Of a stretch of DNA of 64,000 nucleotides, positions 38,466 through 58,514 are shown in pieces; position 1 is the first letter of the stretch, and each line of letters starts with the position of its first letter. The DNA is taken from positions 11,956,635-12,020,634 of the forward strand of contig NC_087079.1 in the NCBI RefSeq assembly GCF_026151205.1, in the 5' to 3' direction. The notes under the pieces are model-generated. The model did not search any database, was not told the DNA's origin, and saw only the letters and a list, made by a program, of their open reading frames with translations. This DNA comes from Bolinopsis microptera. Its lineage: Eukaryota; Ctenophora; Tentaculata; Lobata; Bolinopsidae. Both the position numbers and the translations under genes were made by a program.

Positions 38466-39069
38466 CAATGAAACAAGAAATTTCAATGAAACAAGAAATT
38501 TAATTTTTAGCACATTTTACAGAGTAAAGAGATGTAAAACAATTTATAAAAATATAATGCTCATTTGGTGTATGACTTTTTGTCCTTGACTGTTAGTTTG
38601 ATTTTGAAGGGACAGGCAACTAACGGGGCAGGGAATGTGCGTGCCTGAAAGCTTTTGCACACACCAAAACGCTAGTTCAGTTGAGTTTTTAGAGACAGGG
38701 CTCATATGAGGATCAGAAGAAAATTGTTAGCAGACGTTAGGGGTTCTGTTTGTGTTTGTTACTATGGGTTACAGTCTTGTTGTGACAGAAAGTCTACACT
38801 ATATATATGCCTAAGTTTAAATTGTGTAGTTTGAGGATATAAGATGCAACTTTAAGATGGATATTGGAGAGCTGTTGAAAAATTATGTTCGTTGTATCAA
38901 TGGTTATAATAAGCTAATATAAATATCTTAAACTAAACAGTGCTAATTAAAAATTTCTTTATACTGCATTATCAAATTAAATGTTAAAAATTCAAAAATA
39001 TTCATTCATTTTATTTTATTAAAGACTTTCTCACACATACTTTTCTCACAGAACAAGACTTGGAAAACA

Positions 39070-42000
39070 CTAGACTAGGGGAATTTCGCTGACATGTGTG
39101 TGACCAGCAAGTAGTGATCTTTCGAAGACAATATTGTTGCAGTCAAAATCTTTGATTGTCCAATCAAGCGGGGCGTGGCTGTGTTGATTATTTATTAGTG
39201 CACGTTTAAGCTTTCCCCGCAAACACATAACACTCATGGTAAAGTCATCCATTCTAATTTTTGGAGTAATCATGTTAAAAATTTTGGTTGATCTTGTATT
39301 ATGGTTATCAGGTGGGTCAGCCTGACAAATAAGTAGGGTCGGCTTCCTTGTCGAGCATGTGTAGCCTTCATGTAAGGATATTGGAGCACGAAATTTCATT
39401 ATCTTGTAGAGCTCGAGGTAACAGTGGTATGTATAGAGATTTTGGATAGCTAGGATATTATTATGTTTGAATAGCGGTTTAGTATGTTCTTTTATGAAAA
39501 ACTTGTTGTTAAGTCTTTGGTGCCCTATTGGTCTGGTACGTGCACAGGTCTTAAACTTATCAAGGTAAGCCTCCCTATCACCGAACATAACCCTAAGACA
39601 GTACTTCTGGGCGGTAAACAGAGAGCTTATACGATGCTTCGCTGCCCCACCCCAGACAGATATACAGTAAGAGAGATGGGATTCAAACAAAGTATAGTAT
39701 AGTTGTTGATGTAGAAATTCTGGAAGGGAGCAGCGAAGTCGACATAAGGTGGAAGTGGAATGATTTAGATTTCGCTTAAGGGCTTTAATGTGTTCTTCCC
39801 ATGAAAGGTTTTCATCAATTATAACTCCAAGGAATTTAGTGCATGAAACTTTTTTTATCGGAAAGTTGTCTATAGTAAGTCCTACTTCATCATCTGATAG
39901 AGTCTCTGACTTAGAACCTTTCATGGGAGGCTTGAAGTGTATGTAGCAGCACTTGGACATATTTATATGTAACTTATTTGCTCGCATGTAAGACTGCAAT
40001 GATGAAAGAAGCTTATTTCCACGTTCATAGGCCTCACGTTTTGTTTTTCCTACAACAAATATATTGGTATCATCAGCAAATGTAACAAATGATCCTAGTT
40101 TAGAACTGTTTGAGATGTCGTTCATGTAGAGGAGAAATAGGAGAGGTCCAAGTATTGAACCCTGCGGGACACCAAATTGAATAGATAGGGTGTCTGATTT
40201 TTCTCCCACAACTTCGGTGTATTGTAGTCTATTTGTTAAGTAGCTTTTTATAAGGTTATTTGCTACTCCTCTAATTCCACAGCCCTCTAATTTTATAAGT
40301 AGTGTTGAATGATCGATAGTGTCAAAGGCTTTGCTTAAGTCAATGAATATTCCTAGAACATGATTCTTGAGTTTAAGAGATTTTGTAATTAAATCTACAG
40401 AGTAATTGACTGCATGAGATGTAGAATGGGATTGCCTAAATCCAAACTGTGTCTCCGATATGGCTCCTCGAGAGCTAACAAATCCGTATATTCTTGAGTA
40501 AATGAGCTTTTCGAAGATTTTACCGAAGACAGACAGTGTGGAGATAGGACGGTAGTTCTCAATTTCTTCAGGGTTACCTTTCTTATATACAGGTGTTATC
40601 TTACCAGTTTTCAGGACATCTGGAAATATACCTTCGGCCATAAGGATATTGAAGTAATTTGATAAGACAGGTGCAATTATATGAGATGACTTTTTTATTA
40701 CACTTATTGGAATGTCACTAGCTTTGCCGTTTTCAAACTGATTTATAATTTTCAATATTTCGGTCGGGGAGCAATCTTCTAGCATAATAGTTTTTTCATT
40801 TCTTTTATTCAGGAAGTCATAAAAAGTTTTCATGGGTAATATAGGCATGCCATGAGATAGGTCATTAAGCGTCTCATTCAGCTTGGGTGCAATAGAGACA
40901 AACCAAGCATTGAATCCATTAGCGATTGTCCTTCTATCAACTATTCTTTGATTATCAATGATAAACGGGGGTTTGGTTTGTCTCTTCTTCTTGCCTCTAA
41001 GTTCATTGATAATTTGCCAAGTTTTCTTGCTGTTTTCACAGTTGTTGAGGATTTCGTTGCAGTAATGCGAACGTTTGGCAGCTTTAATGATGGCTTTAAG
41101 CATCCTACGATAATTGCTGAATACTTGGTAGAACAAGAGATTACCACCAGGGTTCTTATTGGTAACAGTGTCAGACCACTCCTTACGTAGTTCATGTTTT
41201 CTTTCTACCGACTGGATGATACCGTCTGTAATCCATGGGTTGAGTTTCGGAGTTCTTTTTGTCACTTTTGGTACTTCCAGTTTACAGTGTTTATCAAGTG
41301 TCTGGTCAAAACATGCCGTAAACTCATCAAATTGTGTCGAAGGAGTCAGCTGGTTTACCTTCACCTCAAGTTCAGTTACGAAACTTTTTAATTTGGAGCT
41401 TGAGTAATCATAATATCGGACATGTTTCTGGGGCTCTGTATTGCGAGGGGTCTCTGCTGAGGTAAAGGTAAATATAGGGGCATGCTCACCAAGCCGCTCC
41501 TCGATAACACCTGATAAGACTACATTCTCTATTTTATTTGTTAAAATGTTATCAATACATGAACTTTTACAGTTTTGACGAAAATGTGTTGCAATGGATA
41601 TAGTCGGATAGAAGCCATTTCTGTACAATGTATCCTCAAAGAGCTGGGAACTGGTAGAAATATTAAGTATGTTTGAGTTAAAGTCGCCCAACAAATTGAC
41701 AGTTTTTCCATTTAGCTGTCTTGCAATTAACTCCAGCGTTTCACAAAAGCTGTCAAAGCAGCCATTTGGGGGTCGGTACATGACTCCATGAACAATTTTG
41801 CAGCCTGCGCTATCTGTGGTTTCAACAAAGAGGCTTTCAATATTTGGAGTACAATGTGATACTTTTTCTAAGACCACAGTGTTTAGATTGTCAGATACAT
41901 AGAGTGCAACACCAGTGCCTTTCTTCTTGCCCGCCAATGTTTCCCCATAGAATCCTGTGTATGCTGGAATTTGATACAGACCCTGCTGCGCAGGATCAGT

Positions 42001-42477
42001 ATTGGTTTCAGCAAGGCCTATCATATCAAACGAGTGTCCTATACTTCTGAGCTCAATCAAGAAGCTATCAAAGTTGGATGCATTTCCATCCACATTGTAG
42101 AATAGAGATGATAACATGGGTTTTTTTAAGGAATTAAGCTGCTTAATTGCATTTAGAAATTCAATTTTAGAGTAGCGACGACAGCGTTCAAGTACAAGGG
42201 AATACGATGCAATCAGGGTATCCTCCTGGTTCCTATTTTCATAGAATCTGTCAGAGTCATAAGATTCTTCATTAGATGGAAATGGATAGTATCGTTCCTC
42301 TGCAGAACTAGCACACTCGTAACACATCCACAGACCATTTTTGCAAGAATATTTGGCAGATTTGAAGCATTTGGTATGGATTGCATTATTGCAGTTTTCA
42401 CACTCCAGTAAAGGTTGTCCAATGTTAATAGATCTGCTGCATGGGCCACACACATCTTTAATCAGTTTTATATTCAT
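39070..42477 (-). CDS. LINE A ORF2: PHD, endonuclease, reverse transcriptase
   Basis: An open frame of 1135 residues. An N-terminal C4HC3 zinc finger (CGPC, CENC, HTKC, CYEC; about 10-56) is followed by an exonuclease-endonuclease-phosphatase domain: LAETNTDP, MYRPPNG, LLGDFNSN, CIDNILTN and GEHAPIF. The reverse transcriptase has ENYRPISTLSVFGKIFEKLI, QFGFRQSHSTSHAV, GIFIDLSKAFDTIDHSTLL, GVPQGSILGPLLF and catalytic FADD. A cysteine/histidine-containing C-terminal part follows. It would nick target DNA and copy element RNA in place. The start MNIKLIKDVCG lies five bases after the ORF1 stop. All core motifs are intact. Confidence 0.95.
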   Translation of the reverse strand: MNIKLIKDVCGPCSRSINIGQPLLECENCNNAIHTKCFKSAKYSCKNGLWMCYECASSAEERYYPFPSNEESYDSDRFYENRNQEDTLIASYSLVLERCRRYSKIEFLNAIKQLNSLKKPMLSSLFYNVDGNASNFDSFLIELRSIGHSFDMIGLAETNTDPAQQGLYQIPAYTGFYGETLAGKKKGTGVALYVSDNLNTVVLEKVSHCTPNIESLFVETTDSAGCKIVHGVMYRPPNGCFDSFCETLELIARQLNGKTVNLLGDFNSNILNISTSSQLFEDTLYRNGFYPTISIATHFRQNCKSSCIDNILTNKIENVVLSGVIEERLGEHAPIFTFTSAETPRNTEPQKHVRYYDYSSSKLKSFVTELEVKVNQLTPSTQFDEFTACFDQTLDKHCKLEVPKVTKRTPKLNPWITDGIIQSVERKHELRKEWSDTVTNKNPGGNLLFYQVFSNYRRMLKAIIKAAKRSHYCNEILNNCENSKKTWQIINELRGKKKRQTKPPFIIDNQRIVDRRTIANGFNAWFVSIAPKLNETLNDLSHGMPILPMKTFYDFLNKRNEKTIMLEDCSPTEILKIINQFENGKASDIPISVIKKSSHIIAPVLSNYFNILMAEGIFPDVLKTGKITPVYKKGNPEEIENYRPISTLSVFGKIFEKLIYSRIYGFVSSRGAISETQFGFRQSHSTSHAVNYSVDLITKSLKLKNHVLGIFIDLSKAFDTIDHSTLLIKLEGCGIRGVANNLIKSYLTNRLQYTEVVGEKSDTLSIQFGVPQGSILGPLLFLLYMNDISNSSKLGSFVTFADDTNIFVVGKTKREAYERGNKLLSSLQSYMRANKLHINMSKCCYIHFKPPMKGSKSETLSDDEVGLTIDNFPIKKVSCTKFLGVIIDENLSWEEHIKALKRNLNHSTSTLCRLRCSLPEFLHQQLYYTLFESHLSYCISVWGGAAKHRISSLFTAQKYCLRVMFGDREAYLDKFKTCARTRPIGHQRLNNKFFIKEHTKPLFKHNNILAIQNLYTYHCYLELYKIMKFRAPISLHEGYTCSTRKPTLLICQADPPDNHNTRSTKIFNMITPKIRMDDFTMSVMCLRGKLKRALINNQHSHAPLDWTIKDFDCNNIVFERSLLAGHTHVSEIPLV

Positions 42478-42482
42478 TTTTA

Positions 42483-44550
42483 CTAAGTGGGGTTGTTAGA
42501 CCCCACTGACTGGTTGTGTTTTCCACGTCTTGTCCACTCTTGCCTCGCTCTCACATACACCCAGTGCTTCACACATCTCACAAATTTTGCAATACCATAA
42601 ATACCTAAATGTATATCATCACCACTTCTGGTCAGATTAGTGGCAAGGAGTCCACTACTGTCCAGAAAGTGGCCAACTCCAATGTGCCATACAGTCTGGT
42701 TAAAGTTGGCACTCAACAATTCATCGACTAGTCGGTTGAAGATCATGATGTTCTTGTTCATTTGGGGCAGTCTGGTTGGGAGGACTGCGGTGACAAAGAG
42801 TTTGATTTTAGGGGAGAGCTTTTTTATCTGTTCAATCTTCATGCGGAGAATGTCAACCAGCTGATAGATTGCATTCTCTCCTCTAAGGTTGTCTACTCGA
42901 AGGTCATTTGTACCACACACAATAACAGCATTGCTGTATCCGATACAGTGACATGGGTCAATCAAACCAACTTTGCCCGCCTTAACTCTTTCGCCAGGGA
43001 AAGACTGACCCATAGTACCAACACCGCTCCCAAACTTGATAGTTTTGGTGTTGGAATCTCCAAGTATGATGGTGCTTCTTCGAAATTTTTTGTCAACTGT
43101 TCTAAGGGTAATTGAGTAACGTCCTATGGACGGGGTTACCTTGGTCTGTTGGGTAGCTTTAATACCATGTTTGAACCATGCCTGTGAGGAACGTGTCATG
43201 ATATAAACTGAGTTTGATTCCAGGGACATTTCAGTGTTTTTTTGTGGGTGTTTGTCCTTCGTGGATGGGCATGAAACTTATTTTTCTGACCTCTCCTATG
43301 GAAATTGTGGCTATGTCAGAGTCAGCGAGGATCTCTGGCTCGTCATCACAGTGAAAGGGCAACATACTTTCCTCTGCACCGCTGCTTGGAGGGAAGTAGT
43401 TTATGAGCACAGAGTTAGGCCTGTGCGTGAGTTTGCACTGAGACGTGACTCTATCAATGGCAGCTGTTAAAACTGATGGAATGGCTGCTGATGACGGGGC
43501 ATTTGAGTCTCCAGAATAGTTGTAGCTTTCGCCGTATTTGAGGACTGCCCTTCCATTCATCTGGCTAAACTTACCAGAATCTTTGCTCTCAGTGAGAAAT
43601 CTGGATACCTCATCAAGCAGATCTTTGTCCAAGATGTCTACTTGGTAGTCCTTTATCGGTGGCTGTACACATTTAGGGAGAGCTACTGACGGCTTACTCT
43701 CTCGTTTCACTGCTGCATCATGGGTAGAGGCGAGATGATTCCTTGATTTTTGGAAGGAGTGGATCTCTTCACTCAGTTGTGAAAGTCTGGCCTCCAATGA
43801 AGATATCTCCACAGTGGGTATGCTGTTAGATACAGCACTCGAGATGGCATCAGATACAGCTTGGATGTTTTTACTGTAGTCAACACTAGACTGGAGAGCT
43901 TTATCAAATTTAGACGCGGTGCTGCTGTTTGGTTTGGGATGAAATGACGTGAAGCACCATGGACATTCCCAGTACTGAAGGATGGCATCAAGATCAATCT
44001 GACCAATCTGGTTTGATCCCTTCAGGTTGCTGCAGGAGGCGTGCCAATGCTGAGAGCATCTGCAACATTTGAGAAGCCATTCTTTGCCCTCGGAGCTTGC
44101 TCTACAAGGGCAGTTACCTTTGTTGGCACGTTGCGTTGGACTTGGTTGATCCTTTTCTTCTTCTTCTACATGGAAGGGTGGGAATGGTTTGTAGATAGGG
44201 CTCATAGGGCTCTGCGGACTATCTTTTAGGCAAACAGGGTCTATTACATGGCTAGGACTGATTTTTAGGATGAGAGATGAAGGTGGCTGTAAAGTTGATG
44301 GTCCCAATGGAGAAACAGTAGCCTGCTTTGCAGCTGACTTAGTTGGTAGACTGTTAGATCTTCGTCGTCCTGAGATGTTGGCTGCAGGGTTCTTTAGATT
44401 AGCCTTATTGGCGAGAGGGCTCTTCCTGTGAAGAGGATTAGTCACTTTAGGAGAATGAGGTGGAGTAGCCTTAGCCTTAACAGATGCTGCAGGAGAGGCG
44501 TTTCTGGGCGAGCGTCTGGTTTCTGGTGGTGGTGGTGGAGTACTCTTCAT
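42483..44550 (-). pseudogene. LINE A ORF1: PHD, coiled coil, AlkB, SGNH (one frameshift)
   Basis: The likely start is ATG at 44550 (MKSTPPPPPE). A basic, proline-rich N-terminus is followed by a PHD-type finger (CPC, CCRC, HASC, CPWC), a coiled-coil stretch, then an AlkB-like dioxygenase: YGESYNYSG, NSVLINYFP, HCDDEPEI (H400, D402), AWFKHGI and RYSITLR. The SGNH hydrolase has ILGDSNT, CGTNDLR and DDIHLG. One extra A in an A7 run near 43240 shifts the frame inside the AlkB domain. The downstream part is open from 43229 to 42483. The shift is +1, so it is not a usual -1 slippery site, and a simple mutation is likely. All catalytic residues remain on either side. Confidence 0.88.
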
Positions 44551-44676
44551 GACTGTTGATTGATCAAGGGGATGAGCTGAGTGCCCTCCAGGCTGCCACC
44601 ACGTGACACGCGCTACTGCAAGCAAGAGGACTCTGGTTAGAGCAAAAATTTGATTACCTGGGGACCTCAGGCTATT

Positions 44677-44715
44677 AGGATACAAGGATACAAGGATACA
44701 AGGATACAAGGATAC
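44677..44715. repeat. 8-bp microsatellite at LINE A 5' junction
   Basis: AGGATACA repeated about 4.9 times exactly between the 5' end of LINE A and the resumed C1 sequence. It may be filler DNA made during integration. Confidence 0.85.
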
Positions 44716-44717
44716 TT

Positions 44718-44960
44718 GACTTATTTAGAACAACTGATCTGGGCAAGTTCATACTATTTGCAGATGACACAAACATATTCGTAGTAGATGAATGTAGAAA
44801 AAAACTGTATGAAAGAGCAAACGAAATTCTCCGTTTGTTACACCAGTACATGAAATGCAATCTATTACATATAAATATAAAGAAATGCTGCTACATTCAC
44901 TTCAATCCGTCACGTACAGCTACTGATAATGAGGCAGTTAACGAATCAGAATATATACTA
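44718..44960 (+). pseudogene. C1 fragment: RT catalytic block
   Basis: It encodes DLFRTTDLGKFILFADDTNI, then the HINIKKCCYIHFNP block. It continues the 38308-38465 fragment after a gap of about 15 bases. Its open frame runs by chance into LINE B. Confidence 0.9.
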
Positions 44961-45122
44961 AAAACTGCTCATCTTGATTTCAAATTACTTTTCTTCTTTA
45001 TATCACTCACTCATATGTCAAAACTCTTTTACTCTCATCATCTTATTTTCAGGCTGCTGGCTGGTTCTATGGTGCCCTGGTCCCGATCTCATCATGTGCT
45101 CCTTGCTAACCATACACTAATA

Positions 45123-47018
45123 ATGCAGAAAAACACAGAAAAGAAAACTCTATCCTCTGGATCACCCACCCAGAAGTCCTCGAACCTACAAGCCAAACGT
45201 CGTCAAAGCCCACGTGGTGTAAGTCCTCTGGCGAAAGGAGGACAAGCCAGTCCCCTCGCAAACAAATCTACTACTCCCAAGTCAAGTTCAACAAGCTCCA
45301 ATGAGCAGAAAAACAGTAGTGATCAGACAAAGAAAAAGTCAGAATCTACTAAAAAGACCTCTTGCCCATGTAGCAGTTCCCTAGACGGAAAAGACTGGGT
45401 AATACAGTGCTCAGACTGTAAACAATCATGGCATGCCTCTTGCGGTAATCTACCTGGTACCAATAAACTCTCCCAGGGTGATTTAGACTGCATCAGCCAA
45501 AAATGGCTATGTCCCTGGTGTTACACTTGCATCTTTCCTAGGCCTAAGAACCACCCATCTGCTAAAAAAGAAAAAATTCTTGCTGAAGAAGCCATTACCT
45601 GTGCCACAGCAGTTCAACTCAACGAGAGCACCCTCCTGGAAAATTCATTGCTCCAGAAGATAAGTGAATCAGTTAAAGAAACCATTGAAAGGTCAATTCC
45701 GAGCGTCGACATTACATCCCTGAATGCTCGACTAGAAGACCTTAACAATGAAATTCAGGAGTTCAAAGGAAGAACAAATGCATCCCCTCAGCTTAACTTC
45801 AGAGAACAACCTAGACCTGTTATTCCATCACCCACCAAAAGAAATCTAAAATGTCCTGAACAGCCTTACGAGCAGTACAAAGAGTTATACCTGACAGACA
45901 AGGAACTGAGCAGTGTAGGAGACCTTCTAGGTTATCTGAAGGACTCTGGAGACTTCATCGAAGAGAATGGCCACAGCGTCCGGCTGTATGGAGAGCCCTA
46001 CAGCTACACTGGTTCCCAGCCCCCTAAAGAACACGAGCCTATCCCACCTGAACTTGTTTCTATTATTGACAGGTTCTCCTCAGAACTACAACTCGAGCAC
46101 AAGCCAAACTCGGTCCTCATTAACCACTACCCTTCCTCAGACAGACTCTCTCCATCCCAAAGCTACCTAGCTATGCATTCTGATGATGAATCCACTATTC
46201 TTGCCAACTCGAAAATCGTCACGATCTCAATTGGTGCGACTAGAACTGTGCTTTTTGAATCCAAACAAGACAAAGACCTAGATCCTAGTGAGCTTGATGT
46301 GAAGTCTAACTCACTTTACACTATGACAAGGTCTTCACAAAATTGGTACCGCCACGGTGTGCCAAAATTACCTGATGATAACCCAACAGAGGAGAGATTT
46401 TCGATCACCTTCAGATCTCTCAGCAGCCAGTCTCGACGAAGCATCGTTTTAATCGGTGATTCGAATACCAAAGATGTCAACTTTGGGGATGGTGCAGGTA
46501 AAGTCGGTCATTCCTTCCCTGGTAAACGAGTCAAGGCTGCCCGTGTCAAAGACATCGATCCACACCTGTGTGCTGGATTCTCCAACGCTTTCCTTATGTG
46601 TGGTACCAACGATCTACGCTGTGAAAACGTAAGAAATGTCTCAGATATCCACGAGACAGTGTCAACTTTAAAGAACAAACTAACTGAAATACGTCAATTG
46701 TGTCCACTTACTAACATTTTTGTTGTACCTGTTTTACCATCAAGAATCCATGAAATGAATAAAAATATAATGCTCTACAACAACTTGGTACAGGAGATGA
46801 TAAAGAACTGTTTTCCTAATATTTGGTTTCAGGGTATGTATGGTTTTTTAGATAACAATAGGCTATTATCGGTTAAGTTCACTAGGGGTAACGACACGAT
46901 TCACTTAGGAAGTAGAGGTTTAGCTAAGTTTGTAAGCCACATGAAAAACTGTGTGTTTCTGAAGGAAAAGGTGTCTAGGGAGTCAGCACAGAGGGTTGGA
47001 TCCACTGGTCCAACCTAA
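45123..47018 (+). CDS. LINE B ORF1: PHD, coiled coil, AlkB-like dioxygenase, SGNH esterase
   Basis: 631 residues from MQKNTEKKTL; an in-frame ATG at 45069 is an alternative, and still further upstream the frame is C1 sequence. Basic Ser/Pro-rich tail (1-75); PHD finger (81-137: CPC, CSDC, HASC, CPWC); coiled coil (about 180-225). AlkB-like domain (about 250-433): YGEPYSYTGS lid, NSVLINHYP, H352-S-D354-D-E, IVTISIGATR, H411 in WYRHGVP, and R425/R431 in RFSITFR. These are the Fe(II) ligands and 2-oxoglutarate arginines of the family. SGNH hydrolase (440-620): S447 in GDSNT, GTND (494-497), D591..H594. The SGNH and PHD parts are known in CR1/L2-group ORF1 proteins; the AlkB domain is the surprise. 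It probably binds and protects element RNA. Confidence 0.93.
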   Translation: MQKNTEKKTLSSGSPTQKSSNLQAKRRQSPRGVSPLAKGGQASPLANKSTTPKSSSTSSNEQKNSSDQTKKKSESTKKTSCPCSSSLDGKDWVIQCSDCKQSWHASCGNLPGTNKLSQGDLDCISQKWLCPWCYTCIFPRPKNHPSAKKEKILAEEAITCATAVQLNESTLLENSLLQKISESVKETIERSIPSVDITSLNARLEDLNNEIQEFKGRTNASPQLNFREQPRPVIPSPTKRNLKCPEQPYEQYKELYLTDKELSSVGDLLGYLKDSGDFIEENGHSVRLYGEPYSYTGSQPPKEHEPIPPELVSIIDRFSSELQLEHKPNSVLINHYPSSDRLSPSQSYLAMHSDDESTILANSKIVTISIGATRTVLFESKQDKDLDPSELDVKSNSLYTMTRSSQNWYRHGVPKLPDDNPTEERFSITFRSLSSQSRRSIVLIGDSNTKDVNFGDGAGKVGHSFPGKRVKAARVKDIDPHLCAGFSNAFLMCGTNDLRCENVRNVSDIHETVSTLKNKLTEIRQLCPLTNIFVVPVLPSRIHEMNKNIMLYNNLVQEMIKNCFPNIWFQGMYGFLDNNRLLSVKFTRGNDTIHLGSRGLAKFVSHMKNCVFLKEKVSRESAQRVGSTGPT

Positions 47019-47031
47019 CCGACACATAACT

Positions 47032-50000
47032 ATGATCATGAAATTAATCAAGGAGGTCTGTGAGCCATGCTCAAGGCCCATCAACATTGGGCAGCCCCTA
47101 CTGGAATGTGAAGCCTGTCGGACAGCTATTCATACTAAATGTTTTAAAGTAGCAGGTTTCTGCCCCACCAATGGTCTATGGGTATGTAAGGTTTGTTCAC
47201 TGAACGTGATACCACGCTACAACCCCTTCTCTGGGATGATTAGTGATGGTGGTGATAAATTCTACGATGATGAAGGTGGATGTGATGACGAAACTATTCA
47301 AAAAATTTCGAATGTTCTAGACCAATGTCAGAGCTACTCTACAACTGATCTTAATAGGGTAGTCAGGGAGCTTCAAAACACATGTAATCCTTCATCCACA
47401 CACTCAAAATTCACATCCTACTTTGTCAACTTAGATGGTAACAAAACCAACTTCGATTGTCTTAATGTTGAACTCAAACGGATTGAACTAAATTTCTCTG
47501 TAATTGGTATCGCTGAAACAAACACAGATGAACCTCTTAAAGAACTATACAGAATACCGCAATACAACAGTTTTTATCAGGTCACTCAGGAGAACAAGCT
47601 GAAAGGGACTGGTGTTGCCCTGTATGTAGCAAATCACCTTAATGCAGAAGTCATAGAAAATCTTGGCTACTGCACGCCTGATATTGAATCAATCTTTGTT
47701 AAGATCACTCAATCATCCAGCAAGCTCACACTCATCTCAGGGGTCATCTATCGCCCTCCTAATGGTGACATTCATAATTTCCTTAAGTCATTTGATCACA
47801 TATGTAAACTCCTCCCTAAATCTGGTATACGTATAATGGGGGACTTTAATGTTGACCTTCTTAAAGTGAATGGTGACGCTGGTCATGGCAACTATACTCT
47901 TTTTGAAGAATGCTTATTTAGAAATGGTTTCGCTCCCGTTATTTCGATACCTACACATGAGAGACCAAATTGCAAACCATCTTGTATTGACAACATCCTC
48001 ACGAATGACCCTGGTAACTGTGTTCTCTCAGGTTGTATAACAGATAGAATTGGTGACCATGCTCCAACATTTGAATTCACTGACATCGAATTTGAGGTTG
48101 GTCCAAAAAGTGAAAAACATGTCCAGTACTACGACTTCAGTAATGCCAACCTTAATAAATTCCTAACCCTACTGAACACTGACCTCTCAAAGCTCCACAC
48201 TTCTCATGAATTCTCGGATTTTACTAAATTATTTGATCGTGTACTTGATGCAACATGCAAACTTGTAAAGCCAAAAACTACTAAACGGAATCCTATCAAT
48301 AACCCCTGGATAACAGATAGTATCTCAGCAGCTGTTGAAAAAAAACATGAATTAAAAGATAACTGGATTACATCTAAAACTAAGGCAAACCCTGATGGAG
48401 ACCATGTTCTCGAACAAACCTTCAAAGTATACCGAAGGATCCTCAAATCTGTAATTAACTCTGCAAAAAATACTTACTCTTGCAACCAAATCATAGAAAA
48501 TAAGCACGACCGTAAGAAGACATGGCAGATCATTAATGAACTTAGAGGGAAGTGTAAAAAGACTATAAAACCCTCATTTATAATCGACAACAGAAAAATA
48601 ACAGATAGAAGGGTTATTGCAAACGAGTTCAACAAATACTTTAACTCAATTGCCTCCACTCTAAATGAATCAATAGCTGACCTGCCTATACAGGCTTCTG
48701 AATTTTCAACATTTGAAGACTACCTCCTGCCATCCAACAATAACTCTATATTCCTATCTGACTGTTCACATACTGAGCTCATGGAAATAATTTCCAAGTT
48801 GGAAAATGGCAAATCTAGTGATATTCCGATCCGTATAATCAAAAAGTCAGCTCATTTAATCTGCCCTGTTTTAGCCCAACATTTCAACAAACTCATGATG
48901 AGCGGGGTATTTCCTGATGTTTTGAAAGTTGGGAAAGTTACTCCCATATTTAAGAAAGGAAACCAAGAGGATGTAGGAAACTACAGACCTGTCTCTACAC
49001 TGCCTATATTTGGTAAGATATTTGAAAAAGTGATATACAGCCGTATCTACAGTTTCGCTCTGTCACAAAATATCCTTGATGAAAACCAATTTGGCTTCCG
49101 CAAGTCCCATTCTACTAGCCATGCTGTTAACTACTCTGTTAGGATTATTGAAGATAGCATAAAAAAACGAAACCATGTTCTAGGAATATTTATAGATTTG
49201 AGTAAAGCATTTGATACAATCGACCATAGTACACTCCTAACAAAACTAGATAGGTATGGAATAAGAGGCAATGCAAACTGTCTTATTAAAAGCTACTTAT
49301 CAAATAGAACACAGTATACAGAAGTCCTTAATGAAAAATCCGAAAACCTTATCATTAAATATGGAGTTCCACAAGGCTCTGTTTTGGGACCGCTCCTTTT
49401 TCTTCTATACATAAATGATATTGCCAATTCCTCGGATTTAGGAACCTTCATACTATTTGCTGACGACACCAATATTTTTATTGATGGAAAAACTGTAGAA
49501 GAAGCTTATGAGAAAGGCAACAAATTGCTAAGCTGTATAAAAAAGTATATGATCCTTAACAAACTTCACATCAACATGTCAAAGTGCTGTTATATGCATT
49601 TTAAACCAAAGGCTAGTAAATCAGTAGAATTGCCAGATTCGCTTCAACTCCATATTGATGGCTTTCCAATTAAAAAAACCAAAGCAACTAAGTTTCTTGG
49701 AGTTGTTATTGACGAACAGCTTTCCTGGGGGCCTCATATAACAGCACTTAAACGAAAGTTAAACTATGCCTCTGCCACCTTAAATAGAATTAGGGACTCT
49801 GTACCAAAGGAACTCCATAAAGACCTCTACCACACACTATTTGAATCCCACCTCACATATTGTATCTCAGTTTGGGGTGATGCAGCACTCTTTAGGACAG
49901 CAAGTATCTGGCTGTCTCAGAAGCACTGTGTACGGGTCCTCTTTGGTGATAAAGAGGCATACCTAAACAAGTTCCTTACATGTGCAAGAACAAGAGAGTT

Positions 50001-50427
50001 TGACAGCCAGGCACTTGACCATACATTCTTCCAACTAGAGCACTGTAAACCACTTTTCAAGCAACAAAACATCCTGGCTTTCAAAAATTTATATACATAT
50101 CACACATTTATGGAAGTTTTTAAAATACTAAAACTAAGGTGCCCAGCATCACTGCAACAGCATTATCAGTCATCTTCTAGAAAGGAAACCACTATCATTT
50201 CACAACTCCCATCTAATGACTTTATATCAAGATCCACCAAAATTTGGAACACAATTGCACCTAAACTTAAGCTCTTTGACTACTCCTACAAGATTAGCCT
50301 TGCTAAAAGTCGCCTGAAAAAGGCACTTCTAAAGCTGCAACATGCTTATAATGATTCGGCATGGACCACAAGCGATTATGACATAATGCAGCTGTCATTT
50401 GAAAACAATCCCCTTCATCAAATTTAA
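47032..50427 (+). CDS. LINE B ORF2: PHD, endonuclease, reverse transcriptase
   Basis: 1131 residues from MIMKLIKEVCEPC; the frame is open from 46996, overlapping the ORF1 end, but the sequence before MIMK is ORF1 sequence read in another frame. C4HC3 finger (CEPC, CEAC, HTKC, CKVC). Endonuclease with IAETNTD, IYRPPNGD, MGDFNVD, CIDNILTN and GDHAPTF. Reverse transcriptase with NYRPVSTLPIFGKIFEK, NQFGFRKSHSTSHAV, IFIDLSKAFDTIDHSTLL, GVPQGSVLGPLLF and FADD at about residue 810, then FLGVVIDEQLSWGPH and the C-terminal domain. Closely parallel to the LINE A ORF2, with substitutions spread along the length. ORF1 and ORF2 are 13 bases apart, so reinitiation is plausible. Confidence 0.95.
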   Translation: MIMKLIKEVCEPCSRPINIGQPLLECEACRTAIHTKCFKVAGFCPTNGLWVCKVCSLNVIPRYNPFSGMISDGGDKFYDDEGGCDDETIQKISNVLDQCQSYSTTDLNRVVRELQNTCNPSSTHSKFTSYFVNLDGNKTNFDCLNVELKRIELNFSVIGIAETNTDEPLKELYRIPQYNSFYQVTQENKLKGTGVALYVANHLNAEVIENLGYCTPDIESIFVKITQSSSKLTLISGVIYRPPNGDIHNFLKSFDHICKLLPKSGIRIMGDFNVDLLKVNGDAGHGNYTLFEECLFRNGFAPVISIPTHERPNCKPSCIDNILTNDPGNCVLSGCITDRIGDHAPTFEFTDIEFEVGPKSEKHVQYYDFSNANLNKFLTLLNTDLSKLHTSHEFSDFTKLFDRVLDATCKLVKPKTTKRNPINNPWITDSISAAVEKKHELKDNWITSKTKANPDGDHVLEQTFKVYRRILKSVINSAKNTYSCNQIIENKHDRKKTWQIINELRGKCKKTIKPSFIIDNRKITDRRVIANEFNKYFNSIASTLNESIADLPIQASEFSTFEDYLLPSNNNSIFLSDCSHTELMEIISKLENGKSSDIPIRIIKKSAHLICPVLAQHFNKLMMSGVFPDVLKVGKVTPIFKKGNQEDVGNYRPVSTLPIFGKIFEKVIYSRIYSFALSQNILDENQFGFRKSHSTSHAVNYSVRIIEDSIKKRNHVLGIFIDLSKAFDTIDHSTLLTKLDRYGIRGNANCLIKSYLSNRTQYTEVLNEKSENLIIKYGVPQGSVLGPLLFLLYINDIANSSDLGTFILFADDTNIFIDGKTVEEAYEKGNKLLSCIKKYMILNKLHINMSKCCYMHFKPKASKSVELPDSLQLHIDGFPIKKTKATKFLGVVIDEQLSWGPHITALKRKLNYASATLNRIRDSVPKELHKDLYHTLFESHLTYCISVWGDAALFRTASIWLSQKHCVRVLFGDKEAYLNKFLTCARTREFDSQALDHTFFQLEHCKPLFKQQNILAFKNLYTYHTFMEVFKILKLRCPASLQQHYQSSSRKETTIISQLPSNDFISRSTKIWNTIAPKLKLFDYSYKISLAKSRLKKALLKLQHAYNDSAWTTSDYDIMQLSFENNPLHQI

Positions 50428-51146
50428 TTCAGTGATCTCGGCCCACAGGCTCCTCCTATTAAACAATTTTGATTTTGGTAAATGTGTGCTGACTCCACCA
50501 CCTATGTATTTAACCTAATATTTAGTGTATTACAGGTAGAAATTGACTTAGGTAGGTATTTTTATCTTAGGTAGATATTAAGAATTTGGATAATTTCTTA
50601 ATTGTATGACTATTTCCATTACTGAGACGTTTTTAATATTTAATTTAGGAGGGTTTTTGGAATTTTTTTAGGACTGGTTCACAGAGTGAACAGATTCCAG
50701 ATTTATATATTTTTAAACTGATATTTAATAAATGATTAAAAGAACAAATTTTAAAGTTGCCATTAGATCCAAAAATACACCCATTATGCTCACTTAAAAA
50801 CAACTCTAAATCAGTAGGCTGTCACTCTATTAATGCACCACACCGCTACCTCCACTGCACTAATAGTTATACAATAAATTCTACAATCCTAATTTTGTGT
50901 CGTGATGGAGACCGGTGTTCATACAAAACATTTACTAGGTTGCCGTTTGGTGTGAGCAATAGCGAACAGCACGCACACTCCTTTGCCCCGTCAACCTATA
51001 TCTAATATATTTAAAGAGTGACAACCATACTGCACATTGAATTAGGATTCCGTTTAATATCAAATTGATTTATTGTAAACTTGTTTAATCTGTAATAAAT
51101 GGCATAAAATTGAAATTTTTGTTTAACTGAAATTTTTGTTTAACTG
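50428..51146 (+). other. LINE B 3' UTR and tail
   Basis: About 720 bp without an ORF of interest, ending in two 17-bp tail repeats. Confidence 0.8.
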
Positions 51147-51150
51147 ACTA

Positions 51151-51770
51151 ACTCTGAATAATACGGTAATAAAGCAAGTTAGAGAGACCAAGTTTTTAGG
51201 TGTTATTATTGGAAAACAAATTTTTGGAAAACAAATTTAAATTTTGGTATTTATTAATAACAATCAAAACATATCATATCATAAAAATAAAGCCGCGCGT
51301 TGGTTGACTGCCTCAGTAAGGTGAATAATTTAAGCTTGAGGGTGTCCTGCGCATTTACAGAACCTTATGCGGCGATCACATATTCACGAGGACCTGTGAG
51401 CGCCAAAATTAATTTAAAGTTTCTAGAAATCATACATCACTAATGAGGCAGTTAACGAATCAGAATGTATACTAACTCTGAATAATACGGTAATAAAGCA
51501 AGTTAGAGAGACCAAGTTTTTAGGTGTTATTATTGGAAAACAAATTTTTGGAAAACAAATTTAAATTTTGGTATTTATTAATAACAATCAAAACATATCA
51601 TATCATAAAAATAAAGCCGCGCGTTGGTTGACTGCCTCAGTAAGGTGAATAATTTAAGCTTGAAGGTGCCCTGCGCATTTACAGAACCTTATGCGGCGAT
51701 CACATATTCACGAGGACCTGTGAGCGCCAAAATTAATTTAAAGTTTCTAGAAATCATACATCACTACGAG
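51151..51770. repeat. 324-bp tandem duplication across the C1/C2 junction
   Basis: The first unit is 44927-44960 plus 51151-51440, interrupted by LINE B; the second starts at 51441. Each unit carries C1 sequence, the C2 tail and about 230 bp of the C2 3' end. Hence C2 inserted before the duplication, and B inserted after it. Confidence 0.85.
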
Positions 51771-53069: not shown

Positions 53070-56000
53070 TTATAATAGACAAGTGTATTTGTACAGGTTG
53101 TGGACGGTAAGAAGGCCGTTCTTGTTAAACAACGGCTTTGTATGCTCTTTTTCAAAGAATTCCCTTCCTAGGATTTGTTCATCTATACAACGTGTTCTGG
53201 CACATGTTCTAAATTTATCTAGATATGCTTCAAGGTCACCAAATAGTATTCTGATACATTTTTTTCTGAGTGATGAAGATAGGTTGAAGCATATTGTTAC
53301 TCGACCCACCCCATACCGATATTCCAAATCTTAGGTGTGACTCAAATAACGTGTGGTACAGTTCTTTATGGTGTTTTTTTGGGATAACGTGTCGTATTCT
53401 ACTGAGTCTTCCGATCTCACACCTAAGTTTCGAGTTGAGGGCTCTTATTTGAACATCCCATTTTAGCTTTTCGTCAATAATAACACCTAAAAACTTGGTC
53501 TCTTTAACTTGCTTTATTACCGTATTATTCAGAGTTAGTATATATTCTGATTCGTTATCTGCCTCATTATCAGTAGCTGTACGTGAAGGATTGAAGTGAA
53601 TGTAGCAGCATTTCTTTATATTTATATGTAATAGATTGCATTTCATGTACTGGTGTAACAAACGGAGAATTTCGTTTGCTCTTTCATACAGTTTTTTTCT
53701 ACATTCATCTACTACGAATATGTTTGTGTCATCTGCAAATATAGTATGAACTTGCCCAGATCAGTTGTTCTAAATAAGTCGTTAACATATATTATAAATA
53801 GCAAGGGTCCGAGACAAGAGCCTTGGGGAACTCCAAAGAGAACAGGCAGCTTGTCAGACTCTTCGCCCAGTACAGAGACATATTGATATCTATTAGAGAG
53901 ATAACTAGCGATGAGTCTATTGTCGTTTCCACGTATTCCATAGTTGTCTAGTTTATTAAGTAGTTTTACATGTGAGATCGTGTCAAACGCTTTAGATAGA
54001 TCAATAAATATTCCAAGTACATGCAGTTTTTTGCTAAGTCAGGATTCTATGTAATTCACTGAGGAGTTGAGGGCATGGCTTGTGGAGTGATTTTTTCTAA
54101 ATCCGTACTGGTTCTCGTAAATCATTTTCTGGGACTGAAAGAAGCTATACAGTCTGTTGTAAATAATTTTTTCAAATATCTTACCAAAAACAGCTAAGGT
54201 TGATACTGGCCTATAGTTTTCCAGCAATTCCTCATTATCCTTCTTATAGATCGGACTGATTCTCCCAGTCTTTAAATCATCTGGGAATACTCCATTCCTC
54301 ATGCATTCACTGTATAATAAAGATAGTATAGGACAGATCACTTTAGACGATTCTTTAACTATATGTATTGGGATGTCGGATGACTTCCCATTCTTCAGTT
54401 CAGATATAATCATTCTAACCTCGTCAGCTGTACAGTCATTCATCAAAATACTGGACGTGTTTGCTCTAGGCAGGTAGTCATAAAAACTAGGAAGAGTGTT
54501 AATAGTTAGTTCTCCAATTTCATTATATGCCCCGTTTAAATTAGACGCTAGAGAAACAAAATACTTATTAAATTCATTGGCTATTACTCTACGATTGGTT
54601 ATCTTCTCATTGTTTATAGTAAACAGTGGTTTTATTTGCCGTTTCTGTTTGCCCCGTATTTGATTAATCAGTTCCCATGTCTTCTTACTATTACCGTTTG
54701 TGTCTGCAAATTTTCCCATAAAATACTTAGTTTGAACATCTTTGCGATTTTTTTTTAACCATCCTTCTATAATCCTTATAAGTTTTGTATCTAGAACGTT
54801 TTTCACAACATTTCAAGCATTGACATGTTCAACCTTTATAATCAGTTTCACCAAGTTTACATTTTTTCTTTCTAACTTTAGCCCAATTGTCATAGAGTTG
54901 GTGCTGATGCTTGATTTTGGCTATAAGCCCAGGTGTGATCCATGGGTTATTTTGTGTAGTTCTTTTGGAAGACTTAGGGGTTGCCAACTTACACGTTTTA
55001 TCGATACTACTTTTGAAAACATCATGAAATACCGTGAAGTTGTCAATTACTTTATTCTCTAATTCATGTTCCAAGTCCTTTACAAAAGAGGTAACATTAG
55101 ACTTACAGTAGTCGTAATATTGTTTATATTTTAGGTTACTCTTAGTGGATCCCATACTCTTTTCAAATATTTGAAAGACTGGTGAGTGGTGGGATATACG
55201 ATCAGTAAGTGTGCCTGAGGCTATTATACTCTCTACATCGTTAGTTATAATATTGTCAATACAACCTGGCTTCTCATGAGTTGGCAGAGATATTAGGGGA
55301 AAAAATTCTCTACTGAACAGGATTTCCTCATAACGTTTTACAATCGCATTATCCTTATTATGTAGATCAATGTTGAAATCACCTGCCAGGTAACTGCATT
55401 TCGGCAAATTATCGAGAATTGCTGAGAGTTCTAATAATGCAACATTTACATTGACACCACTTGGAGGGCGATAAACTACACCAACAGTGACCGGAGTATT
55501 CTTGCTGCTTATCGTGACAAATAGAGTTTCTAGGTTTTCAGATATATGGGACAAATTGCCATTTACTGTAGCACTGAGGGTATCACATACATAAAGAGCG
55601 ACTCCAGAGCCTTTTCTTTTATCTTGCAAAGTGTTTTGGTAGAAACTATTGTATCCAGTCAGTTGGTAAAGGTCACTTAATTCGGGGCCTTCATTTGTTT
55701 CTGCTAAAGCAATGATCGAAAATTTCATATATCTCTGTAGTTCTATTGCCAGAGTATCAAAGTTAGATTTATTACCATCAATATTTTGAAATAATAATGA
55801 TGAGTACTCGTTCATTTGGTTGCAAAATGTTTTATTAAATTCTTTAACACTATATGGGTTACAGTTATTGAGTAATCGGTTGATGTTTACAAGTGTTTCA
55901 TCAATGTCAGTACTATTATTTTCAGAGTCAGTATCTTCAATATATAAACGGATTGTAACGAGTACTTGCTAAGTGTACACAGTTAGGGCAGTAAAAATCT

Positions 56001-56140
56001 TCATATATTTTGTTTGTACTGGATTTAGTATAGCATTTATGGTGCATAGCACAGTCACACCTACAACATTCAGCAATGAATTGGCCAATGGAAATGAATT
56101 TTGTACAGACAGGGCATACCTCTTTGGTCAATTTATTCAT
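53070..56140 (-). pseudogene. LINE C2 ORF2, several disabling changes
   Basis: The start at 56140 (MNKLTKEVCPVC) overlaps the ORF1 stop as ATGA. The N-terminal C4HC3 finger is intact. A frameshift near 55944 precedes the endonuclease part (55815-54829: LAETNEG, VYRPPSG, LAGDFNID, CIDNIITN). A stop follows near 54827, then RT blocks (54806-54039), an in-frame TGA near 54039, and a 2-bp insertion in the codons of the FADD motif near 53742, which C1 lacks. The RT C-terminus is open to 53236 and the remainder can be read to 53070. So this copy cannot make working RT. Confidence 0.88.
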
Positions 56141-58374
56141 GGGTACGGTACGTAACCTTCCCCTAGTTGAGTCGCAGCAGCAGCAGGAGAGGAACCACCC
56201 ATCGTCTGGGAGTATAAGCGATTGTCAACTTTATCCGATCTCTTCTTCCTTCTATCAGTCCCTCCATTCATCCTTAAAAGTATTGTATCACGTATAAGAA
56301 CCCCCAGTTTTGCTGTACCACTCCAATTGAGGTGTAAATAGTCCGGTCTCTGGTTTCGTCCAATGTTCCTAGAGAATTGCTGGCTTAGGAGCCCAGCCTC
56401 ATCACAGAACATGTCAAAACCAGGTACCAAAGTCACACCAAAGTTGGAATGGAGCAGCTCCTTAAAAATTAATTCATTATAATGTACAACTTTACGATTT
56501 AGCTCAACGAGTTTGGTTGGCAGCAGCGGACACACAAATATATTCGCTTTGGGGTTAAGCGCTTGGATCATTTCTACTTTCTGAACAAATGGTGTAAAAA
56601 TATTGTTCTTTATATCAGCGGTATTTTTGATCTCAGGTTTCCTGATATCATTTATACCACACATCAAGAGAACATTCCTGTATCCACATGAAACTATAGG
56701 ATTTATATCCCCCACTACCGGAGCAAAATACGGTTTTCCGGGGAGCCACTGCCCAAATGATTTTTTGGGGTCCAGCCCGAATTTGAGACCACCAGTATGC
56801 GAGTCTCCGATGATGCATGTAGAGTTCCTGTTCCTAAAGCTAACTGAACGAAAAGTTAGGCTGTATCTCACCCCACCAGTTATTGCCCCATCCTCGATAC
56901 AGTGGCTGTAGAACTCTTGGCTACGTCGAGTCATGCGATACATGGATCTTGGCACACATGTATGGTCAAGAGCCATATGATCCGTCTTCTTATCAAAGAA
57001 TTTGATGTTGCACTGGCCTCCAATAGACACAGTGAAAATTTCGGATTCAGGGTGGATGGTAGCTTCATCATCTGAGTGTTTCGGTAGGGAGCCATCCTCT
57101 TTGAAGCGGTTGATCAGCAGGCTATTGATCTTCGGTTTTTCACCACTACAGAATGCACCATTGATTTTGTCCACTAGATTGGAGAAGCTAGTTAAAGCTA
57201 GTTGGCCATTGGATGACTTGGAGCCATTATACTTGTATGGTTCTCCCAAAGAATACACAGCACGAGCTCCCTCCACAACAAAATCCTCCTCAAGTGATTG
57301 GCAGGCAAGGAGGAGAGTTTCCTGCTCTTCTGTGGTAATAAACTCTTCTATAGCGCCTACAACTGGTTCTTCTTTTGATTGGAGATGCTCATTAGCTATT
57401 AGGTCTGGGCCAGGGGCAAGTGAAAAACTGGTAAGTTGGATGTTTAAATGGTCAGAAGAAGCCAAAGAATTTCGCTCAAGAGTGTTCAAAGACTGTCTAA
57501 TGGCTGTTAGCTCCTGATTCGTCTCCAGAGACTGCTTGGAATTTAGCTCATGGAGATTCTTCTCTATTTTTTCCATGAGATCATTGGTCTTGGATGAAGA
57601 TTGAGCACTTACTTGAGGAATAGAAAAGTCCTGCAGTTGCTTGTTCGACACTTTAATCTGATCTGTTAGGCCACTATCAGTCTCAGAAACCTTTCCGAGT
57701 GTAGAGTCAACTGAAGTTTTCAGCTGCTTTAAATCTCCTTCCATCACTTCAACCCATGCTGGAGCAGTGCCCTTGTCACTAACCAGTAGGTGCTTGATAT
57801 GGAGGTCAAGGTTCTGGATGGCAGCAATGCTGTCGTTTAGACTGTCAAAGTCAACCTTGGCAAGCTTTTCACCAAAAGCTGTGATGGTATTAAGCTTCTC
57901 TGTGGCAATAGCTGTCTCACACTGACTGTTAGATTTTTGAAGTGTCAGACTGTTCCTACACACATAACACACATCTGCATCAGTTTCGAGTGTGGGAATT
58001 GGTGAAACCAAACAAAAAGGGCAGTGCCAATTGGTCATGCTGTTGACATTTTTCTGGTTGAGTCCATTCATAGTTAGACAGTCTATGTGCCAATATTGCT
58101 TGCACTTTACACAGTCAATCTTCCATGACGATATTGACTTACTACATGGACATTTCGTCTTGTCCCTGTGTGAACTGTCAAACTTTGGGGGTGTTACATC
58201 ACTGTCTACAACAATAGTTTCACAAGATACGTCCTTTCCCTTCGCCTCTGGTCCTGGAGTGTTGTTCTTGATTCGGGACTTTGCCTTTTTGTCCGCAGGG
58301 GAAGGAATCCGAGACATATTGGTAATAGATGAGGCTCTCTTGTTACTCTTGTTGTTGTCACCCATACTCAGCAA
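56137..58374 (-). CDS. LINE C2 ORF1: PHD, coiled coil, AlkB, SGNH (intact)
   Basis: 745 residues, fully open although ORF2 of the same copy is broken. PHD finger (about 75-122: CPC, CVKC, HIDC, CPFC), an extra CYVC pair, a long predicted coiled coil (about 175-310), then the AlkB-like domain: YSLGEPYKYNGS, NSLLINRFK, H433-S-D435-D-E, FTVSIGG, H491 in FYSHCI, and R503/R509 in RYSLTFR. SGNH esterase: S525 in IIGDSHT, CGINDIR and DYLHLN. It is clearly diverged from A and B outside the motifs, so it represents a separate LINE subfamily with the same domain order. The ATGA overlap with ORF2 suggests coupled translation. Confidence 0.92.
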   Translation of the reverse strand: MLSMGDNNKSNKRASSITNMSRIPSPADKKAKSRIKNNTPGPEAKGKDVSCETIVVDSDVTPPKFDSSHRDKTKCPCSKSISSWKIDCVKCKQYWHIDCLTMNGLNQKNVNSMTNWHCPFCLVSPIPTLETDADVCYVCRNSLTLQKSNSQCETAIATEKLNTITAFGEKLAKVDFDSLNDSIAAIQNLDLHIKHLLVSDKGTAPAWVEVMEGDLKQLKTSVDSTLGKVSETDSGLTDQIKVSNKQLQDFSIPQVSAQSSSKTNDLMEKIEKNLHELNSKQSLETNQELTAIRQSLNTLERNSLASSDHLNIQLTSFSLAPGPDLIANEHLQSKEEPVVGAIEEFITTEEQETLLLACQSLEEDFVVEGARAVYSLGEPYKYNGSKSSNGQLALTSFSNLVDKINGAFCSGEKPKINSLLINRFKEDGSLPKHSDDEATIHPESEIFTVSIGGQCNIKFFDKKTDHMALDHTCVPRSMYRMTRRSQEFYSHCIEDGAITGGVRYSLTFRSVSFRNRNSTCIIGDSHTGGLKFGLDPKKSFGQWLPGKPYFAPVVGDINPIVSCGYRNVLLMCGINDIRKPEIKNTADIKNNIFTPFVQKVEMIQALNPKANIFVCPLLPTKLVELNRKVVHYNELIFKELLHSNFGVTLVPGFDMFCDEAGLLSQQFSRNIGRNQRPDYLHLNWSGTAKLGVLIRDTILLRMNGGTDRRKKRSDKVDNRLYSQTMGGSSPAAAATQLGEGYVPYP

Positions 58375-58510: not shown

Positions 58511-58514
58511 TATT

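Follow-up and report, generated by a model that had tools for sequence, protein, structure and literature searches.

The window analysed here, a stretch of 64,000 nucleotides (64 kb) of contig NC_087079.1 from the ctenophore Bolinopsis microptera, contains three LINEs with an AlkB domain, namely the elements A, B and C, the last of which is decayed (Table 1). In element B, ORF1 and ORF2 are both open reading frames. The element is inserted in a fragment of the reverse transcriptase (RT) gene of another LINE, and the empty site is seen in an uninterrupted relative. Three other copies of element B (L036, L037 and L038) are 98.8-99.5% identical across about 6 kb; L036, which is the same place as L003, lies on the same contig as element B, and L037 and L038 lie on different contigs. 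Because homology with these copies and with L008 extends further 5' than the start of element B, the copy in the window is 5'-truncated; it retains ORF1 from the ATG at position 45123 on, the putative start. The ORF2 product matches the Pfam profiles RVT_1 (E 4.7e-38) and, after an N-terminal PHD-like finger, Exo_endo_phos_2 (E 1.9e-5; 25.0 bits, just under the cut-off of 27.4), and in element A the endonuclease profile scores above its cut-off (26.0 vs 24.5). With its endonuclease, RT and target-site duplication, element B is an endonuclease-bearing LINE, i.e. a non-LTR retrotransposon, which was inserted recently by ordinary target-primed retrotransposition. Judging from the PHD finger and esterase of ORF1 and from the short repeats at the 3' end, the elements are probably LINEs of the CR1/L2 type.

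Table 1. Features of the AlkB-bearing LINEs in the window (positions refer to the first letter of the window as 1).
Feature	Position	Strand	Basis and remarks
LINE element A; ORF2 open (39070-42477), ORF1 frameshifted inside AlkB (43231-44709, 42483-43229)	38466..44602 (about)	-	ORFs, Pfam, copies
Target-site duplication ACTAA of element B, 5' copy	44957..44961	.	boundaries +-3 bases; flanks compared with uninterrupted homologue near 53535-53600
LINE element B	44962..51146 (about)	+	near-identical copies, flank comparison; 5'-truncated vs other copies
ORF1 of B (631 aa), from a basic disordered N-terminus through PHD finger, coiled coil and AlkB to the SGNH esterase	45123..47018	+	Pfam, alignments, model
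PHD-like zinc finger, residues 81-133	45363..45521	+	PF00628 E 0.0029, 18 bits, below cut-off 24; Cys/His conserved
Coiled coil predicted from long helices at residues 145-219	45555..45779	+	structure model, moderate confidence
AlkB-type Fe(II)/2OG dioxygenase domain (about residues 250-431) with H352, D354, H411, R425, R431	45870..46415	+	Pfam, profile, model, conservation
SGNH/GDSL esterase, residues 440-620; S447, N496, D591, H594	46440..46982	+	PF00657 E 0.0019, weak, below cut-off; GDSL profiles in relatives
ORF2 of B (1143 aa) with PHD-like finger, endonuclease and reverse transcriptase	46996..50427	+	Pfam
3' tail of element B, short tandem repeat GAAATTTTTGTTTAACT	51112..51146	+	flank comparison
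Target-site duplication ACTAA of element B, 3' copy	51147..51151	.	same flank comparison as 5' copy
LINE element C; ORF1 open (56137-58374), AlkB about 56821-57369	53236..58374 (about)	-	PF13532 E 4e-11
ORF2 pieces of element C	54829-55815, 54039-54806, 53236-53661	-	assigned to C by position only

A model of the whole ORF1 protein (mean pLDDT 76.9, pTM 0.62) places a disordered N-terminus, the PHD finger, long helices, the AlkB domain and the SGNH region in this order. The first 78 residues include 17 K/R and only 4 D/E. In the C-terminal region, the esterase residues S447, N496 and H594 are invariant in a 30-member alignment (A2), and D591 is kept in at least 90% of its rows; esterase profiles match weakly across the same alignment (PF13472 in 21 and PF00657 in 11 of the 30 members). 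By this predicted SGNH esterase with its catalytic residues, ORF1 is a member of the type IV (esterase) class.

The first-pass annotation had placed an AlkB-like dioxygenase at 45873..46428 within ORF1, a span that agrees with the domain boundaries in Table 1; the domain in the elements A and C had not been noted there. The five motifs on which it relied (NSVLINHYP, HSDDE, IVTISIGATR, WYRHGVP and RFSITFR) do occur in this order in the single open frame of 631 codons, and the comparison with the Pfam family 2OG-FeII_Oxy_2 that it had suggested gives a significant match: residues 291-431 fit PF13532 with E 4.6e-21 (76.3 bits vs a cut-off of 31.2). Every member of alignment A2 likewise matches this profile, with E values of 0.01 or less. 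A profile built from 17 LINE copies of the AlkB domain finds, among PDB sequences, ALKBH2 (1.6e-19), ALKBH3 (2.3e-16) and ALKBH8 (2.9e-14), and more weakly E. coli AlkB (6.7e-7) and ALKBH6 (8.6e-6). The fold tells the same story: the AlphaFold model of the domain (pLDDT 87.2, pTM 0.85), whose comparison with AlkB had also been proposed, has ALKBH2 and ALKBH3 as its leading PDB matches in Foldseek (ALKBH2 on top with E 6.4e-13), followed by E. coli AlkB and ALKBH6. All of the top 25 fold matches are ALKBH2 or ALKBH3, with TM scores (query) of 0.66-0.75. Profile and fold thus speak against both outcomes named in the first-pass annotation as refuting it, a missing AlkB profile hit and a predicted fold of another kind. 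Chains of ALKBH5 and FTO are absent from the 31 sequence matches and from the best 50 fold matches of the domain; in the search with the whole-ORF1 model, ALKBH5 enters at rank 32 onward. The bacterial AlkB equivalog of NCBIfam, whose cut-off is 231 bits, scores just 21.1 bits, so the LINE domain falls outside the bacterial AlkB subfamily.

According to the alignments, the putative iron ligands are H352 (position 46176), D354 (46182) and H411 (46353), and the putative 2OG/substrate arginines are R425 (46395) and R431 (46413), spaced six residues apart. In the profile alignment, H352, D354 and H411 each share a column with one of the ALKBH2 residues that we take to be its iron ligands. The upstream motif YGEPYSYTG aligns with YTFSG of ALKBH2, a motif that presumably lines the base site. 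The RxN motif of ALKBH2/3 is replaced by RxS in ORF1 (RFSITFR), and Ser is found in 80/80 rows of an alignment that consists of 78 relatives and the elements B and C; the two pieces of element A are excluded from the counts. F278, which is Phe in 100 of 122 relatives, aligns with an ALKBH2 position that we assume to be its duplex-probing finger. E356 corresponds to the residue of ALKBH2 that presumably governs base choice; this alignment is compatible also with m6A or 6mA. Taken together, the ORF1 protein almost certainly contains an AlkB domain, which is predicted to be catalytically competent. Because ALKBH2/3 are its nearest relatives and it retains an aromatic motif that aligns with the base site of ALKBH2, we strongly infer that it demethylates nucleic acids.

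The first-pass annotation had assigned iron binding to HxD and a distal H, and the binding of 2-oxoglutarate and substrate to a pair of arginines. These residues are retained almost throughout: H352, D354, H411 and R425 are found in 122/122 database relatives of the ORF1 type, as is Q406, while R431, E356 and S397 are kept in 121, Y293 in 120 and Y295 in 117 of them. These relatives were gathered with AlkB-containing queries, by which AlkB-less relatives could be missed; hence the presence of the domain in this set is given by construction, but the retention of the catalytic residues is not. The host genome offers a second sample of 44 domains covering at least 150 profile columns (L001-L005, duplicates of other loci, are omitted). 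H352 and D354 are present in 44/44 of these domains, H411 in all 43 readable cases, and R425 and R431 in all 42 readable cases; L007 is not counted for the two arginines, since the letters there lie beyond a frame break. The catalytic codons of the genome copies vary only synonymously, without any residue change in the codon table, which directly shows that the protein is under selection. Estimates of dN/dS (Nei-Gojobori; pairs with dS 0.1-1.5 only) have a median of 0.132 for AlkB (range 0.082-0.649; 51 of 903 pairs) and of 0.126 for the esterase (up to 0.564; 46 of 946 pairs). For the RT the median is 0.086 (up to 0.112; 22 of 561 pairs), and the RT is under tighter constraint than AlkB.

The domain recurs throughout the genome (264.65 Mb in 232 contigs), in which 150 AlkB matches, the best of 708 candidates, were scored. 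At 32 of the 39 loci retrieved for AlkB, an RT frame of at least 240 query columns lies within the stretch, and in the copies compared AlkB begins 3.0-3.1 kb ahead of the RT domain; a random control locus (L044) has no match. The reverse direction was examined with three loci that possess whole ORF2 frames and come from two previously unsampled RT groups, which share 61% and 57% identity with the query and are unmatched in the AlkB list; only the predicted place was read. All three contain AlkB with H, D, H, R and R at the predicted place, followed by the esterase, the residues being read by eye. Among the six RT-picked places read in all, five hold AlkB, two of them only its last part owing to 5' truncation, and one holds none. 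On a larger scale, 35 of 53 RT copies with whole ORF2 (drawn from the best 142 of 6124 candidates) have AlkB upstream and 18 do not, when compared with the AlkB list of the best 150 of 708 candidates. Three of these 18 were read: L049 and L050 are 5'-truncated inside AlkB, and L051 retains neither AlkB nor esterase nor a long frame at the place read; no AlkB-less sister LINE was found among the three. Profile and fold, together with the unchanged catalytic residues, the purifying selection and the many LINE families in which the domain recurs, thus bear out the earlier proposal of an AlkB-type domain inside a LINE ORF1.

The host possesses an ALKBH2 gene of its own at C5:18690424-18690933, with 51% identity to the human ALKBH2 query. 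The same query also matches many repeated frames of 537-646 aa (best 150 of 579 candidates). One of them, L055 (491 aa read), contains AlkB (4.4e-18) and, behind it, a weak match to GDSL (0.015), and among 241 database proteins it is closest to the ORF1-type proteins P0240 and P0239. Mnemiopsis leidyi (P0037, P0043, P0071, P0094) is the only animal named among the protein relatives. The same ORF1 is also found in a 'Moritella MAG' (P0050, P0051), most likely a contamination. In IMG/VR contigs, 11 stretches fit the one pattern used from the AlkB alignment, and none of them is a relative.

Concerning the origin of the domain, AlkB and RT distances correlate across 32 copies (r 0.93; reached in 0 of 2000 permutations), and esterase distances correlate too. 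Among 14 representatives, identity drops to 29% for AlkB and to 53% for the RT. In a tree with 51 other sequences (49 database AlkBs and human ALKBH2/3), 17 LINE AlkB domains form one group with a support of 92/93. This group stands beside the one with human ALKBH2/3; support is low at the deep branches, and three rows on long branches attach to the stem of the LINE group. The parallel distances and the single group suggest that, within the sample, AlkB was most likely acquired once and then inherited with the LINE. One pair, L027 and L032, is 97-98% identical in AlkB and esterase but just 72% in RT, a mismatch that points to an exchange of ORF1.

As regards the function of the enzyme in the life cycle of the element, we propose, as the best explanation of the whole and a fairly probable one, that the ALKBH2/3-type dioxygenase of ORF1 clears RT-blocking methylation from element RNA or cDNA. 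Element RNA would be coated by ORF1p in a ribonucleoprotein, in which the AlkB domain would strip methyl groups from the Watson-Crick face (m1A, m3C) in a 2OG-dependent manner; with the template RNA and/or the nascent cDNA cleared, full-length copying and integration would succeed. The substrate and the step, i.e. m1A/m3C-type removal from template RNA and/or nascent cDNA, are proposed more tentatively, at not quite an even chance. We favour such a substrate for two reasons: ALKBH2/3 are the nearest enzymes, and these methyl groups hinder reverse transcriptases; m1A and m3C are described as disturbing reverse transcription, and AlkB as removing both (PMC12140624). The host probably has writers for several marks, since its genome contains seven MT-A70 matches, all above the cut-off, and two DNA_methylase matches.

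Alternatively, the domain could remove host-set m6A from element RNA and thereby evade epitranscriptomic restriction, as proposed for the AlkBH5-like protein of an orchid Ty3/Gypsy element. The AlkB of the orchid element is reported to act as a demethylase in vitro (PMC9289625), and the MT-A70 matches indicate that m6A writers are likely available in the host as well. We nevertheless consider an m6A eraser unlikely, because the LINE domain is nearest to ALKBH2/3, with ALKBH5 and FTO absent from the sequence and best fold matches, and because in human L1, as described, METTL3 promotes and ALKBH5 suppresses retrotransposition, i.e. the opposite direction (PMC7873242). An action on DNA has a similarly small chance; the domain would then repair 3mC/1mA at the target site or in the cDNA, or would free element copies of 6mA or of methyltransferase-caused 3mC. 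ALKBH2 is described as repairing 3mC in DNA and as co-evolving with 3mC-making DNMTs (PMC9246332). In agreement with an action on DNA are also the DNA_methylase matches of the host, the lower CpG o/e of the elements A (0.48) and B (0.46) compared with the first 38 kb of the window (0.60), and Phe at position 278, aligned with the presumed duplex-probing finger. However, a general need for DNA repair is already met, since the host retains its own ALKBH2, and the main target of ORF1p in the particle is generally considered to be RNA.

It is rather improbable that the AlkB fold provides a structured module for binding RNA, or hydroxylates a protein, instead of demethylating nucleic acids. Such a module could fill a gap, given that the esterase-type ORF1ps in RepBase are described as lacking a structured RNA-binding domain (PMC3905857); yet mere binding needs no invariant iron/2OG site, and here H, D, H and R are retained in every database relative, with only synonymous change in the codons. 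The frameshifted ORF1 of element A and the fragmented ORF2 of element C might suggest a dead passenger, a host gene fragment or a chimeric assembly. These explanations have practically no probability left: they are refuted by the many scored genome matches and the near-identical copies of about 6 kb at three other places, by the target-site duplication and by dN/dS values well under 1.

With a chance somewhat below even, the elements represent a whole clade of animal LINEs, of old age and still growing, for whose retrotransposition the ALKBH2/3-type demethylase of ORF1 would be obligatory, as a repair enzyme that accompanies the RT and clears template-blocking methylation. In that case, element RNA or cDNA would receive methyl groups on its Watson-Crick face from the host or the environment, as a layer of defence or damage. 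To our knowledge, Watson-Crick-face methylation has not been described as an anti-retrotransposon layer in animals. The frames of about 540-650 aa with AlkB and GDSL in the same genome would then be further branches of this strategy.

Compared with known systems, the LINE domain shares with human ALKBH2/ALKBH3 the fold, the HxD...H iron site, the paired Arg, the HSDDE-type motif and an aromatic motif that aligns with the base site. It differs in its low identity (20-24% in the best fold matches), in RxS instead of RxN, and in being embedded in ORF1 between a predicted coiled coil and esterase. The overall organization is that of LINEs of the CR1/L2 group with type IV ORF1, e.g. zebrafish ZfL2-1, with coiled coil and SGNH esterase in ORF1 and EN-RT in ORF2, but the ctenophore ORF1 has a second enzyme, AlkB, ahead of the esterase. 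PHD fingers are known from CR1 ORF1s (PMC3905857, PMC4120745). A survey of ORF1 in the Jockey superfamily distinguishes RRM, CCHC, PHD, esterase and Tnp22 types, and AlkB is not among the types it names (PMC4120745). The accounts of esterase ORF1s differ, since they are placed in vertebrate groups only by one source (PMC4120745) and in many animal phyla by another (PMC3905857).

Other mobile elements and viruses possess related enzymes. The paALKBH5-like ORF2 of the Phalaenopsis orchid Ty3/Gypsy element is likewise an AlkB encoded by a retrotransposon, for which RNA demethylation in vitro is described (PMC9289625); it belongs to an LTR element of one plant genus, is of the ALKBH5 type and forms a separate ORF, whereas here an ALKBH2/3-type domain lies within the LINE ORF1 of many families. 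Assignment to the orchid type of m6A-eraser retrotransposon was therefore rejected, the element being a LINE and its domain being nearest to ALKBH2/3 rather than ALKBH5. AlkB domains of the same fold are found among the BFVD matches, including the Pinela virus polyprotein, the Grapevine virus T replicase, proteins of grapevine leafroll-associated virus and of pithoviruses, but these are viral proteins and do not belong to a LINE. Fungal DNA transposons are also described as carrying 2OG oxygenases, which differ in being of the TET/JBP family and in residing on DNA transposons (PMC12730594).

In the literature searched on AlkB, dioxygenases and demethylases in mobile elements, we found no non-LTR element described as carrying AlkB; within this literature, the orchid Ty3/Gypsy element is the nearest described case. 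An article by Iyer and Aravind in BioEssays from 2016 is said to survey the enzymes of adenine methylation in eukaryotes including mobile elements, and it may hold an earlier mention. Together with the orchid LTR elements, AlkB would have been recruited at least twice by retrotransposons, besides viruses. The poorly understood ORF1 proteins of LINEs gain a second predicted enzyme domain, of known chemistry and easily assayed, beside the esterase, which has been called unique among ORF1ps as enzymatic and described as their sole enzyme (PMC3905857). Esterase-type ORF1s would not be confined to vertebrates, since one is present here in a ctenophore. Many LINE families of this ctenophore have kept the AlkB domain, and ctenophores are held to be the sister phylum to other animals (PMC10232365). 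With a point mutant, the effect of methylation on a retrotransposon template becomes directly testable. The presence of AlkB in these LINEs suggests that the element may clean or repair its own genetic material during copying.

At two loci of the Bolinopsis genome, L027 and L032, the AlkB and esterase regions are 97-98% alike, while the reverse transcriptases are just 72% alike; this pattern argues for an exchange of ORF1 and ORF2 between LINE lineages. The database relative P0001 appears to be a mosaic ORF1, with an N-terminal part that resembles ORF1 of element A when compared by eye, and an AlkB domain that is 89% alike to that of element B.

Among the matches listed from the genome search with human ALKBH2 are additional, repeated AlkB-GDSL frames of 537-646 aa. 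The example read, L055, scores higher against ALKBH2 than element B does (55 versus 23 bits), and a profile search of this single frame gave no PHD match. Two further ALKBH2-like matches among those listed lie on contig C9 within very long open frames, i.e. one of 3226 aa (match at 15868150-15868581) and one of 2225 aa (11092850-11093284); these are perhaps AlkB domains fused to other polyproteins. In Mnemiopsis leidyi, pieces of the LINE AlkB and esterase are, by eye, joined to other sequence in two gene models annotated as host proteins (P0071 and P0037), and these fusions represent either gene-model chimeras or exonisation.

Coordinates of the AlkB-GDSL example and of other features of the window
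Feature	Location	Remarks
AlkB-GDSL frame L055	contig C6:860300-861900	example read from the repeated frames
Inverted repeat, 98%	52543-53479 and 58511-59446	on both sides of element C; contains LINE RT pieces
Open frame resembling a voltage-gated potassium channel	20345-21523	TVGYGD filter motif, by eye
Retropepsin-like frame	15812-17302	appearance by eye
Long tandem repeat	16086-16676	several frames open; within the retropepsin-like frame; by eye

Because the observed/expected ratio of CpG is 0.48 in element A (38470-44602) and 0.46 in element B (44961-51144), compared with 0.60 in the window's first 38 kb, there is a hint that both elements are methylated in the germ line.
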